Shown here: in pieces, positions 4,701-7,717 of the stretch
Layout: the number at the start of each line of letters is the position of its first letter
Position numbering within the stretch: the first letter of the stretch is position 1
Assembly: GCA_017938205.1 (NCBI GenBank)
Contig: JAGBCA010000051.1
Coordinates: forward strand, 1-41,183
Source: Clostridia bacterium
Lineage (GTDB): Bacteria; Bacillota; Clostridia; Oscillospirales; CAG-272
DNA: 41,183 nt
Reading direction: 5' to 3'
Made by a program: the position numbers and the translations under genes
Notes under the pieces: generated by a model
What the model saw: the letters and a program-made list of their open reading frames with translations, nothing else
Databases searched by the model: none
Told to the model about the DNA's origin: nothing

Positions 4701-6077
4701 ATGAAAAAGAATGATATTGTACGCCTCGAGATCGAGGACCTGAACAATCTTGGATTCGGCGTTGCACGGATAGACGGAAAGGCTGTTTTTGTTTCCGGCG
4801 CGGTCACGGGAGATACCGTGGAGGCACAGCTCATTAAGGTGAACGCCTCGTATGCCGTTGCCATCGTGAAAAAACTGCTCGTCCGCTCTTCGCTGCGTAC
4901 GGAGGGGCGCTGCCCCTATCCTGCCTGCACGGCTTGCGCATATAAGAATATTGAATACGCCCATGAGCTGAAAACTAAGCAGGGTAACGTGCGTGCCTCC
5001 TTCCGCAAGGCGGGACTTTCGGAGATCGAGGTGTTGCCCGTTTTGTCCACGGGGCAGACCTGCGGCTATCGCAACAAGGCGCAGTATCCGATCGGCAAGG
5101 ATGCAAAGGGGAATTATGTTTTCGGCTTTTATGCGCCGAAGAGCCATACCGTCAAGGAAGCGGCCGCCTGCCCCCTCCAACCGAAGATCTTTGCAGAGAT
5201 TTTAGAGCTTTTGCGCGTGTTTTTTAAGGAAAACGATCTTTCCGTGTATGACGAAAAAACCGGAAAAGGGCTGCTTCGTCACATATATCTTCGCCGCGCC
5301 GAGAAAAACGGCGAGGTGCTTTTAACGCTCGTGATCAACGGCAGCGGCCTGCCCTGCGAGGAAGCGCTCGTTTCGCGCGTATGCGCGGCGTTTCCTTCCG
5401 TGGTCGGCATTCTTATCAACGAAAACCGCGAGGATACCAACGTGATCCTCTCGGATACCTACCGCACGCTTTGGGGGCAGAATTATATGACGGACGAGCT
5501 CTCGGGCGTAACGCTGAGGATCGCGCCCTCTGCTTTTTATCAGGTCAATCACGATGGCGCAGAGCTTCTGTACGGCGAGGCGAAAGCGCTTGCAGGCCTT
5601 AGAAAGACGGATCTTCTTCTTGATCTCTATTGCGGCACGGGCGCGATCGGCCTCTCCATGGCAAAGGACGTGCGCGAGGTGATCGGCATCGAGATCGTTG
5701 CCGATGCGATCGAATGTGCAAAGCAAAACGCAGCCCTTTCGGGCATCGAAAACGCCTCCTTCTTCGTCGGCGATGCCGCCGATGCGGAAAAGATCCTCGA
5801 AAATGCGGAAAAAGCACGCGGCGAGGCGATCCGCCCGGACGTGATCGTTCTCGATCCCCCGCGCAAGGGCTGCGACGCAAAGCTCCTTTCCTTCGTTGCC
5901 TCTCTTTCCCCGCGCACGATCGTCTACGTTTCCTGTGGCCCCGATACGCTTGCGCGCGACGTCGCGATCCTCGCTCCGCTCGGCTACACAACCGATAAAG
6001 TGCAGCCCGTGGATATGTTCCCGGGGACCGGGCATGTCGAGTCCGTCGTGTGTCTCACACGAGGACTCGACAACTAA
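4701..6077 (+). CDS. rlmD: 23S rRNA (uracil-5-)-methyltransferase, RlmD/RumA family
   Basis: SAM-dependent RNA m5U methyltransferase of 458 residues. Residues 1-60 form a TRAM RNA-binding domain. An iron-sulfur cluster is indicated by Cys71, Cys76, Cys79 (CPYPACTAC) and Cys157. The SAM loop reads DLYCGTGAIGLSMA, followed by the catalytic-domain motifs DPPRKGC and YVSCGPDTLARD, the latter holding the nucleophilic Cys. Members methylate U1939 and/or U747 of 23S rRNA; which position applies here is not visible (Gram-positive RlmCD does both). The extreme 3' end of the gene forms a 16-bp imperfect hairpin (6036-6071) and runs straight into the palindrome array. Confidence 0.93.
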   Translation: MKKNDIVRLEIEDLNNLGFGVARIDGKAVFVSGAVTGDTVEAQLIKVNASYAVAIVKKLLVRSSLRTEGRCPYPACTACAYKNIEYAHELKTKQGNVRASFRKAGLSEIEVLPVLSTGQTCGYRNKAQYPIGKDAKGNYVFGFYAPKSHTVKEAAACPLQPKIFAEILELLRVFFKENDLSVYDEKTGKGLLRHIYLRRAEKNGEVLLTLVINGSGLPCEEALVSRVCAAFPSVVGILINENREDTNVILSDTYRTLWGQNYMTDELSGVTLRIAPSAFYQVNHDGAELLYGEAKALAGLRKTDLLLDLYCGTGAIGLSMAKDVREVIGIEIVADAIECAKQNAALSGIENASFFVGDAADAEKILENAEKARGEAIRPDVIVLDPPRKGCDAKLLSFVASLSPRTIVYVSCGPDTLARDVAILAPLGYTTDKVQPVDMFPGTGHVESVVCLTRGLDN

Positions 6078-6320
6078 GTTCGCCTGCGGCGAGTGAAGTT
6101 GCAAGCAGTGAAGTTTCGGCTACCGCCGAAGTGAAGTTTGCGCCACGAGTGGCGCAAGTGAATAGTAGTTTAGGGCGAACTTAACTTCACTTTGCGAGTG
6201 AAGCGAGCAAAACTTCACTGTGAGGAAATTTGCAGAGCAAATTGACGAACAACTTCACTACGAGCGTTAGCGAGTAACTTCACCTTATCAGGCTTCACTT
6301 TTGCAAAGCAAAAACTTCAC
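6036..6320. repeat. Array of short palindromes separated by GTGAAGT / ACTTCAC spacers
   Basis: Left half: palindromes TGCaaGCA (6100-6107), TTCGGC-tacc-GCCGAA (6115-6130) and TTGCGCCAC-ga-GTGGCGCAA (6138-6157), separated by GTGAAGT at 6093, 6108 and 6131. Right half: palindromes such as AATTTGC-aga-GCAAATT (6227-6243) and TTTTGC-aaa-GCAAAA (6299-6313), separated by the reverse complement ACTTCAC at 6184, 6212, 6252, 6277 and 6314. An outer arm AAGTTCGCC (6076-6084) pairs with GGCGAACTT (6174-6182). The spacers change orientation near 6160-6183, so the whole could fold into a branched cruciform. A hairpin in the rlmD 3' end (6036-6071) adjoins it. Confidence 0.85.
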
Positions 6321-6328
6321 CAATAATC

Positions 6329-6502
6329 CCAAAGGAATTTCATATTGCTCTTAAGGAATGCGAGGAAACAGAGTGGTGGATTGAAATGCTTGGCGGTTCA
6401 AATGCGATAAGCGAATCAATTGAAAAAGCGCTTTTGCAGGAATGCGGAGCTATTCGCCGTATGCTTGTTAAATCTATCACCACCGCAAAGGAAAACAGTT
6501 GA
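6329..6502 (+). pseudogene. 3' remnant of a four-helix-bundle (S23/Avd-like) protein gene
   Basis: The frame from 6329 to the TGA at 6500-6502 encodes about 57 residues beginning PKEFHIALKECEETEWWIEM and ending TTAKENS. This resembles the C-terminal half of the four-helix-bundle family (23S intervening-sequence S23 proteins, Avd of diversity-generating retroelements), where a F-x-x-K-x-x-IALKE-x-x-E-x-x-YWL pattern is typical. No start codon with a ribosome site is present and the 5' half is missing; the palindrome array occupies the place where it should be. A perfect 8-bp hairpin CTTTCGAG/CTCGAAAG (6515-6535) follows the stop. Confidence 0.7.
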
Positions 6503-6582
6503 GGACAAATGTTGCTTTCGAGCAAAACTCGAAAGTGCATTTTACAGCGGTTTAGTATAACATATCGAAAGGAGCAGCCTTG

Positions 6583-7071
6583 ATGAAAGTCAAAATGAAA
6601 ATCAAATATCGAAAGCTTTGGCTATTTATGATTGGTGTTGCATTTTTGTTGACATTGCTCGTTTTAATGGCAGTAGCTTTTATTACTGAAGATCATAATT
6701 ATGCTTTGGCGATTTTATGTTTACTGCTTGGTGTTGTAATTCTTGTCGCTACTTATTTCCGTTTTAATTATGGAATAACGATTACTGAAAAACGTGTAGT
6801 AGCCATCGAGCAAGCAAGAATTAAAATACTGCGATATGACGATGTAAGCAGTATTGTTGTGAAATTTACTGACGAAAGTGTTGTTGCTTACATAAGAATG
6901 AAAAATCAGAAGGAATATACTTTTGTTTGGGACAGTATATTCTTGGGAACAAACGTTTTTCTGCCATCTCACAACAAAATTAAACTATATGATGAATGGG
7001 TGGAGAAAAGCATCGCGAATCTATCCAATTGCCCTAAGGTAAAAATTCAAAACTTTTATAGCACAGAATAA
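6583..7071 (+). CDS. Small membrane protein with two N-terminal helices and a PH-like domain
   Basis: Protein of 162 residues. After a basic N-terminus (KVKMKIKYRK) there are two transmembrane segments, about residues 11-35 and 42-60. A soluble beta-rich region follows (YGITITEKRVVAIE, then VSSIVVKFTDESVVAYIRMK), like the bacterial PH-domain membrane proteins. It is distinctly more AT-rich than its neighbours, as is the adjoining repeat region, hinting at acquisition. AAAGGAG is 8 bases from ATG 6583; the frame also opens at a TTG three bases earlier. Function unknown. Confidence 0.7.
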   Translation: MKVKMKIKYRKLWLFMIGVAFLLTLLVLMAVAFITEDHNYALAILCLLLGVVILVATYFRFNYGITITEKRVVAIEQARIKILRYDDVSSIVVKFTDESVVAYIRMKNQKEYTFVWDSIFLGTNVFLPSHNKIKLYDEWVEKSIANLSNCPKVKIQNFYSTE

Positions 7072-7312
7072 AATATACCTTTTGGCTTTACAACCCCCGT
7101 TTTTCGACCATTTTGAGACCTTTTGGAGTCTTGAGGCACGTTGAGTTGGTCGTTTGTCTTTCGCGCCATAGATAAAGGTTAGCCTTATGCTCAAAACCAT
7201 CCCCGCCGTGTCATCGATTGCAAGCGTTATGGGCTTTGAATGTGAAAAAGAAGGGGAAGGAAAAGCGATCGGCTGAATTTCTCTATTCCCGAAAATAAAA
7301 AGGAGACAAACC
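7072..7312. other. Intergenic region without a recognisable gene
   Basis: About 240 bases. No convincing reading frame on either strand. It contains a near-inverted pair (GAGACC...GGAGTCT) around 7121-7140 and an AAGGAAAAG-rich stretch before the next gene. It could be the decayed edge of the insertion that brought the repeat array and the membrane gene, but I have no direct proof. Confidence 0.4.
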
Positions 7313-7717
7313 ATGGGATTATTTGATTTTTTTAAAAGAAAAAAGAAGGAGCTACCCATTGAGGCGCAGAAATGGAACAAAATGTGGGAGCTATGGGCGG
7401 ATGAGGCGGCGGCCTCGCCGTATGCGGAGCTGATGACCTATCAAGCGGAGGTCAACAACGGCGGTCATGCGCAGTTTTTTGATAACGTTTCAAACACCTC
7501 CGATCTTCCGAAAACGGTGGAGGCTCTTTATACGGTTTTAGAGGAGGCTTTGCGTGAGAATATCGAAAAGGCGTATACCGCTTTCCTTGCCTACGATGAG
7601 AATGACGAGGAGGATACGATCAGCGCGCTTCTTGATGAATGTGACGCGGTTTTCTATGAGAATGAGAGCGAGATCGAACGCATCCTTCAGGCATATGCCG
7701 ATACATTAGAGCTTTAA
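7313..7717 (+). CDS. DMP19/DUF4375 family protein
   Basis: Soluble protein of 134 residues with a basic N-terminus (FDFFKRKKKE). The core pattern Y-x-x-E-V-N-N-G-G-H-x-Q-F-F-x-N (residues about 43-58) is the hallmark of the DUF4375 domain, related to the DNA-mimic protein DMP19, followed by an acidic helical half rich in Glu and Asp. No biochemical role is established for clostridial members; the acidity would fit interaction with a basic partner. AAGGAGACAAACC precedes the ATG. Confidence 0.8.
   Translation: MGLFDFFKRKKKELPIEAQKWNKMWELWADEAAASPYAELMTYQAEVNNGGHAQFFDNVSNTSDLPKTVEALYTVLEEALRENIEKAYTAFLAYDENDEEDTISALLDECDAVFYENESEIERILQAYADTLEL

Follow-up and report, generated by a model that had tools for sequence, protein, structure and literature searches.

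The stretch of DNA analysed here (the window, 41,183 nucleotides) is contig C45 of the source assembly, a Clostridia genome of 2.36 Mb in 73 contigs that is 84% complete. It contains an array of palindromes spaced by copies of a seven-base word, and directly behind the array lies what looks like half of a four-helix-bundle (4HB) gene. The arrangement raises the question of whether the array has invaded the gene, or whether both are parts of a larger unit.

The array occupies positions 6075-6320 and consists of three GTGAAGT followed by five ACTTCAC spacers, mostly separated by hairpins. In its left half (6075..6183, + strand), which contains hairpins and is closed by a 10-bp stem, exact GTGAAGT copies start at 6093, 6108 and 6131. 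In the right half (6184..6320, + strand), also with hairpins, exact ACTTCAC copies start at 6184, 6212, 6252, 6277 and 6314, a variant spacer, GCTTCAC, is found at 6292, and an extra GTGAAG lies within a hairpin at 6198. Most spacers are set apart by a single hairpin, and the spacer strand switches at about 6183. A previous sequence-only reading of this DNA had described the same three and five copies with palindromes in between, and a flip of the spacer orientation at the centre of the array, and in both respects it is borne out. The 9-bp outer arm that it reported is also present, with 10 bp (6075-6084 and 6174-6183), but encloses the left half and not the whole array. As single-stranded DNA, the 288 nt from 6034 to 6321 are predicted to fold with -73.3 kcal/mol, compared to a mean of -40.7 in 200 shuffles (z = -7.9; 0/200 shuffles as low), and in the predicted fold the left GTGAAGT copies pair with the right ACTTCAC copies. 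An Rfam scan of the window at gathering cut-offs returned tRNA only.

The frame that follows the array (6332..6502, + strand; codons 6332-6499, stop codon 6500-6502) matches positions 62-105 of PF05635 with 25.5 bits (E 1.6e-5), which is below the Pfam cut-off of 33.8, and positions 66-118 of our own 4HB profile. From the PF05635 match, it most likely encodes the C-terminal part, about half, of an S23/IVP four-helix bundle with the start deleted, in agreement with the earlier description of an in-frame half gene. An intact relative, L158, scores 82.7 bits against PF05635. We know of no established function of the S23/IVP proteins, which are known from rRNA intervening sequences. The L158 protein, rather than the remnant, was modelled (pLDDT 92.4). 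By structure comparison, the model has the fold of 2rld (TM 0.81-0.85) and 2gsc (0.80-0.85), stand-alone S23/IVP proteins with five chains in each PDB entry, and more weakly resembles 4dwl, the DGR Avd protein of a Bordetella phage retroelement. Avd forms a pentamer ring. Among phage records, 2 of 50,697 match the 4HB family, and among plasmid records 25 of 72,556 do.

The relatives indicate how the window gene came to be incomplete. GTGAAGT arrays accompany nine of the 95 other 4HB genes of our set (L046, L062, L082, L122, L124, L152 with two, L156 and L158), and the suggested link between array and 4HB genes is upheld. All nine arrays stand upstream of the gene in identical strand order, and further loci agree; L046 has additional GTGAAGT copies downstream as well. 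In both L158 and L252, CAATAATCCCAAAGGAG comes after the array and leads up to the start codon of the 4HB gene. In the window, the counterpart of CAATAATCCCAAAGGAG runs directly into the FHIALKEC codons, which marks a deletion junction with respect to these two loci. What is missing is the start region together with some 60 initial codons, about 0.2 kb in all, and by this comparison the window gene is a deletion relic. Since the array stands upstream of an intact gene in relatives, the window array did not invade a gene. The idea that it had replaced the 5' half of the gene does not hold: the loss is an internal deletion of about 0.2 kb. Nor do the nine GTGAAGT arrays sit at a codon inside a 4HB gene, as all are upstream of it. 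An intact gene in relatives with a simple deletion here had been named beforehand as an observation that would count against insertion, and it is what we find; insertion into the 4HB gene is rejected.

The array belongs to a unit of about 1.1 kb, made up of mirror arm, array, 4HB remnant, core, cargo ORF, right-end motif and repeat. The unit follows an rlmD/rumA-like methyltransferase gene (4701..6077, + strand; PF05958, E 8.6e-20, with a TRAM domain; the name is assigned here) with the C-terminus ...MFPGTGHVESVVCL, and the 3' end of this gene is the insertion site. The last rlmD codons contain the left 23-bp direct repeat (6033..6055, + strand); 30 of 98 genomes have its pattern, CAYGTNGARNNNGTCGTNTGTCT, and none has the reversed control. 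Together with the mirror arm GGACTCGACA, rlmD codons form a terminal hairpin (6035..6072), an inverted repeat with 10/10 bp. Behind the 4HB remnant lies a conserved core (6503..6565, + strand), a hairpin followed by TTTACAGCGGTTTAGTATAACATAT at 6541-6565, which occurs in 16 of 89 genomes at no more than one mismatch (reversed control 0). The cargo gene (6583..7071, + strand) encodes about 163 aa with no Pfam family above cut-off. It is followed by the right-end motif TACCTTTTGG ... TTTTGGAGTCTTG (7076..7133, + strand) and the right 23-bp direct repeat (7137..7159, + strand), in which the rlmD gene-end stretch recurs with differences. Directly after the unit is a DMP19-like gene (7313-7717; PF14300, E 4.8e-12), which is either a host gene or older cargo.

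Elements with the words GTGAAGT, ATGAATT, GTGATAT and CGATATG share one common point at the rlmD gene end. A second site is the end of a gene that we take to be guaA-like from its C-terminus INRVLYDLTPKPTGTIEWE. It is used by GTTATGA elements and also by ATGAAGT/ATGAAAT elements, and other genomes have neither there. Further arrays come, judged by eye, after tRNA genes and terminator hairpins. Going by these sequences, the elements insert at the 3' ends of host genes and do not target the 4HB gene. Of the earlier proposal of a mobile palindromic element directed at the inside of 4HB genes, the first part stands, in that the array is part of something mobile, and the choice of target does not. 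At 7 of 60 loci (control 0/60), a sequence to the left of the array is repeated in direct orientation downstream, and at least three of the seven cases fall within repeated array sequence, so that most non-rlmD loci show none in the sequence examined.

The rlmD elements, and part of the guaA ones, open with an inverted copy of the last bases of the gene. The mirror arm fits the gene end of its own host with a mean score of 11.45 versus 6.43 for 33 distinct ends or end copies at rlmD (0/5000 permutations), and 11.57 versus 7.57 for seven distinct ends at guaA (5/5000), in permutations that treat genomes as independent although they are related. Pairing of the arm with the resident gene is poor (score below 10) for 8 of the 33 rlmD and 3 of the 7 guaA ends. 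Of 19 rlmD ends with an array, 11 have a TCN serine codon, compared to none of 11 ends that lack one (Fisher p = 0.0016, related genomes again being counted as independent), and the arms of L250 and L311 fit the allele of another species. The serine codons and these two arms tend to favour an arm that is carried by the element over one that would be freshly copied from the target at insertion. The data can be read as the element bringing an rlmD end along and swapping it into the gene, as integrases do at gene ends.

Of twenty further stretches compared, 19 belong to rlmD loci or their continuations; the remaining one is contig C19 of the source genome itself. The rlmD units stand singly or in tandem, with a similar order of parts and differing cargo. 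For several homologous cargo proteins, identity between genomes is 84-97% where that of the rlmD proteins is 44-70%, which argues that the units move. The window cargo, for example, is 90.8% identical to its copy in G070, whereas the rlmD proteins of the two are only 49.4% identical. Other shared ORFs beside rlmD, some of them host neighbours, are 30-83% identical, and some are no more alike than rlmD itself (30-79%). Judged by these identities, the units have spread between species. Three rlmD units (L294, L305 and L306) have neither array nor 4HB gene. Among 26 ORFs in or next to units (6 + 20), no Pfam match to a recombinase, transposase or reverse transcriptase was found, and 11 of the 20 ORFs of the second set had no Pfam match at E 0.01. 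The ORF L289:1565-2605 and its counterpart in L306, 89.7% identical at an rlmD identity of 50.3%, belong to the metallo-beta-lactamase-fold superfamily (a generic match). At another place, L159 (G045:C2, 1953-5928), five ATGAATT arrays stand in a row of 4 kb, 0.7-1.2 kb apart and with a different ORF between each. Three of the five also hold three or four GTGAAG copies. No 4HB match and no rlmD repeat were found in the row, which is perhaps a second kind of cassette row.

A search of the array against the host genome and its relatives, as recommended in the sequence-only reading, found it in both. The pattern AACTTCACN{10,36}AACTTCAC has 14 matches per strand in the source genome (reversed control 0), on contigs C3, C14, C25, C38, C45, C49, C50 and C55, and a second pattern adds C19, 37 bases from the contig end. 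Contigs C25, C49, C50 and C55 terminate within an array, as expected because the repeat breaks the assembly. The array-only copies sit at places other than the rlmD unit. Those on C3, C14, C25, C38, C49, C50 and C55 have a variable terminal hairpin, and the copies on C25, C49 and C55 share an identical terminal hairpin in different surroundings. The pattern is present in 57 of 147 genomes, source included (reversed control 3/147), although the single matches in G084 and G085, which are counted among the 57, may be due to chance. The majority of the assemblies used are not complete.

Heptamers also flank 4HB genes in general. The set of 96 genes comprises the one in the window, another in the source genome and the rest from relatives. 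It holds the strongest among the matches listed and three genes (L046, L062 and L158) brought in via arrays, and omits matches that cover fewer than about 85 profile positions (the window excepted), the duplicate L040, and L003 and L004, which match PF05635 weakly. In the 280 nt before and the 200 nt after each gene, the most repeated 7-mer reaches at least five copies for 67 of the 96 genes, compared to 16 of 390 control segments taken from these loci (part of the controls being adjacent arrays), and 4/96 in shuffles. At least six copies are reached by 54/96 genes and 12/390 controls, and by none of the shuffles. The words include GTGAAGT, ATGAATT, GTGATAT, ATGATGT, ATGAAGC, GTTATGA, ATGAAAT and others. 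In named genomes, at least five copies were found at 46 of 80 4HB loci versus 12 of 283 controls, the 80 being the best of at least 589 confirmed stretches and not a random draw. Loci with at least five copies come from Clostridia, Bacteroidota, Cyanobacteria (Richelia), Acidobacteria, Ignavibacteria, Verrucomicrobia, Lentisphaerae and Gammaproteobacteria; the few loci from Planctomycetes, Epsilonproteobacteria, Nitrospirota and Fusobacteria have three or four. Exactly one strand flip is present in 55 of the 67 loci with at least five copies (expected 7.7), and in 35 of the 46 from named genomes (expected 5.5). The array lies upstream of the gene in 42/67 loci of relatives and 5/46 of named genomes, and the gene sits between the two halves, at the strand flip, in 12/67 and 23/46, respectively. 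A stem of at least 5 bp is found in 105 of 229 distinct inter-heptamer segments (shuffled mean 4.9, maximum 11), and heptamer spacings of 7 and 14 correspond to words in simple tandem.

Within a lineage, S23/IVP proteins tend to be accompanied by one and the same seven-base word. Mapped onto a tree of 51 labelled 4HB proteins, the 11 words, with similar or shifted words grouped by hand, require 12 changes, where the minimum possible is 10 and shuffled words require 36.6 on average (0/200 as low as 12). Excluded from this count were 44 of 95 proteins that are unlabelled, either because copies are few or because the heptads are simple AT-rich ones. Several adjacent clades use similar words (ATGATGT/GTGATGT, ATGAAGC/GTGAAGT, ATGAAAT/ATGAAGT), and GTGAAGT is found in two separate clades. 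As array and gene are physically linked, tracking of the tree alone is no proof of binding. Within one array, however, the copies of the word are mostly alike, whereas the hairpins differ and reappear as modules in changed order, and a joint change of many word copies would be harder to explain without recognition or regeneration.

We consider it slightly more likely than not that the array serves as a recognition module at the left end of a mobile gene cassette, which is partly decayed in the window. The 4HB protein would bind its own heptamer once the DNA strand folds into hairpins, and would keep the element end assembled while strands are exchanged at the gene end. The mirror arm may fold onto the target codons and mark the exchange point. 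The element would supply its own copy of the last codons, so that the host gene would stay intact. The strand-exchange enzyme would act in trans, and the array-only copies elsewhere in the source genome would be non-autonomous relatives.

Alternatively, the rlmD units could be CIME-like and moved by the rumA-specific serine integrase of a conjugative element, with array and 4HB gene as passengers or regulators. We think this less likely. In L330 (G028), rlmD runs on into a sequence that resembles the C-terminus of a rumA-type serine integrase, which would place a conjugative element at the units' own site, and the units that have neither array nor 4HB gene fit as well. According to PMC4701971, ICEs with a serine integrase are known to use rumA as a site, where they have direct repeats of 2-21 bp and exchange the 3' part of the gene. 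The window unit, inserted at a rumA 3' end with direct repeats, has these same traits of target gene end, repeats and 3'-part exchange, which are those of ICEs and CIMEs. It differs from both in its hairpin array and mirror arm and in the lack of an integrase among the scanned ORFs. Against the integrase, 0 of the 26 ORFs in or adjoining units match a recombinase family, mirror-arm arrays occur also at the guaA-like gene and arrays after tRNA terminators, and in many genomes 4HB genes have flanking 7-mers away from rlmD.

The array could also serve the 4HB gene as a regulatory site or structured leader, in which case the whole would be an ordinary selfish gene unit. The strong fold of the array would suit a leader, and only 10-21 nt lie between the start of the last repeat and the 4HB profile match in L062, L152, L156 and L158. 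However, several loci have, by eye, promoter-like sequence between array and gene, the loci with the gene at the strand flip have repeats on both sides of it, and arrays also exist alone, all of which makes a leader improbable. Least of all do we expect a REP or IS200/IS605-type palindromic element with a Y1 transposase, or a retroelement with an Avd-like 4HB protein and a reverse transcriptase: hairpin ends and insertion next to hairpins, typical of single-strand transposition, and the Avd-like fold recall them, but the source assembly (84% complete) has no match to PF01797 (Y1) or PF00078 (reverse transcriptase) at E 1e-5, and Y1 in 12 and reverse transcriptase in 11 of the 57 pattern-positive genomes (hand count), against 44 and 33 in all 144 genomes searched (of 147), indicate that neither goes with the arrays.

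REP/RAYT or IS200/IS605 elements and diversity-generating retroelements are disfavoured by the same searches of the source assembly, which also agree with the earlier statement that no reverse transcriptase is visible and set the unit apart from DGR Avd systems. In being dispersed, intergenic, multi-copy hairpins with array-only copies, the arrays are like REP/BIME and MITE sequences, from which they differ by a cognate 4HB gene, constant spacer words, variable hairpins and no link to Y1. Like integron cassettes, the units are small, stand in tandem, are in many cases uncharacterised in function and have variable folded ends; unlike them, they have another end structure and are fixed at the end of a housekeeping gene.

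Among the closest known systems are the 23S intervening sequences (IVS). In PMC4990558, the IVS of Coxiella burnetii is a single element with a 28-bp terminal stem and tandem GACAGAT heptamers just before the S23p start, is termed selfish and suspected to be mobile, and has an internal S23p deletion in one strain. It shares with the present units an S23/IVP 4HB gene in an element with complementary ends and heptamers, a combination found in relatives (67/96; 46/80), with the gene truncated in the window. Unlike the IVS, which sits in an rRNA helix and is excised by RNase III, the present units are intergenic at gene 3' ends, that of the window behind rlmD, and have hairpins between heptamers, direct repeats and cargo genes. 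In the open-access literature we found no general link between 4HB genes and heptamers; PMC4990558 describes heptamers beside S23p in the single Coxiella element. A word search of the text of papers on heptamers in Xanthomonas/Nostoc, Thiomargarita and Beggiatoaceae (PMC4692102, PMC4853749, PMC4679880) found no helix-bundle or S23 terms.

A broader interpretation, which we offer tentatively and with less than even confidence, is that S23/IVP 4HB proteins may be specificity factors of widespread bacterial mobile elements. Each lineage would read a seven-base word of its own, with oppositely oriented copies around the gene or at the element end. In these Clostridia-like relatives, the element, its words spaced by hairpins, would have become a gene-cassette system with a mirror arm for docking on the final codons of housekeeping genes. 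The elements would make up a site-specific class without a recognised recombinase, of which the classic rRNA intervening sequences would be special cases. The word tied to each protein lineage makes binding by S23/IVP proteins directly testable and is a clue to the role of the family. To judge by the rlmD and guaA units, small and mostly uncharacterised genes may pass between related bacteria via gene ends, a route that ordinary mobile-element annotation has perhaps overlooked.

Two other arrangements were seen among the 4HB loci. In L075, L077, L088, L089 and L090, 4HB genes with plain tandem heptads stand directly upstream of a tRNA gene that, by eye, is one for tRNA-Leu. In L151, a 40-bp tandem repeat with TTATAAC in each unit lies upstream of the 4HB gene, unlike the other arrays.
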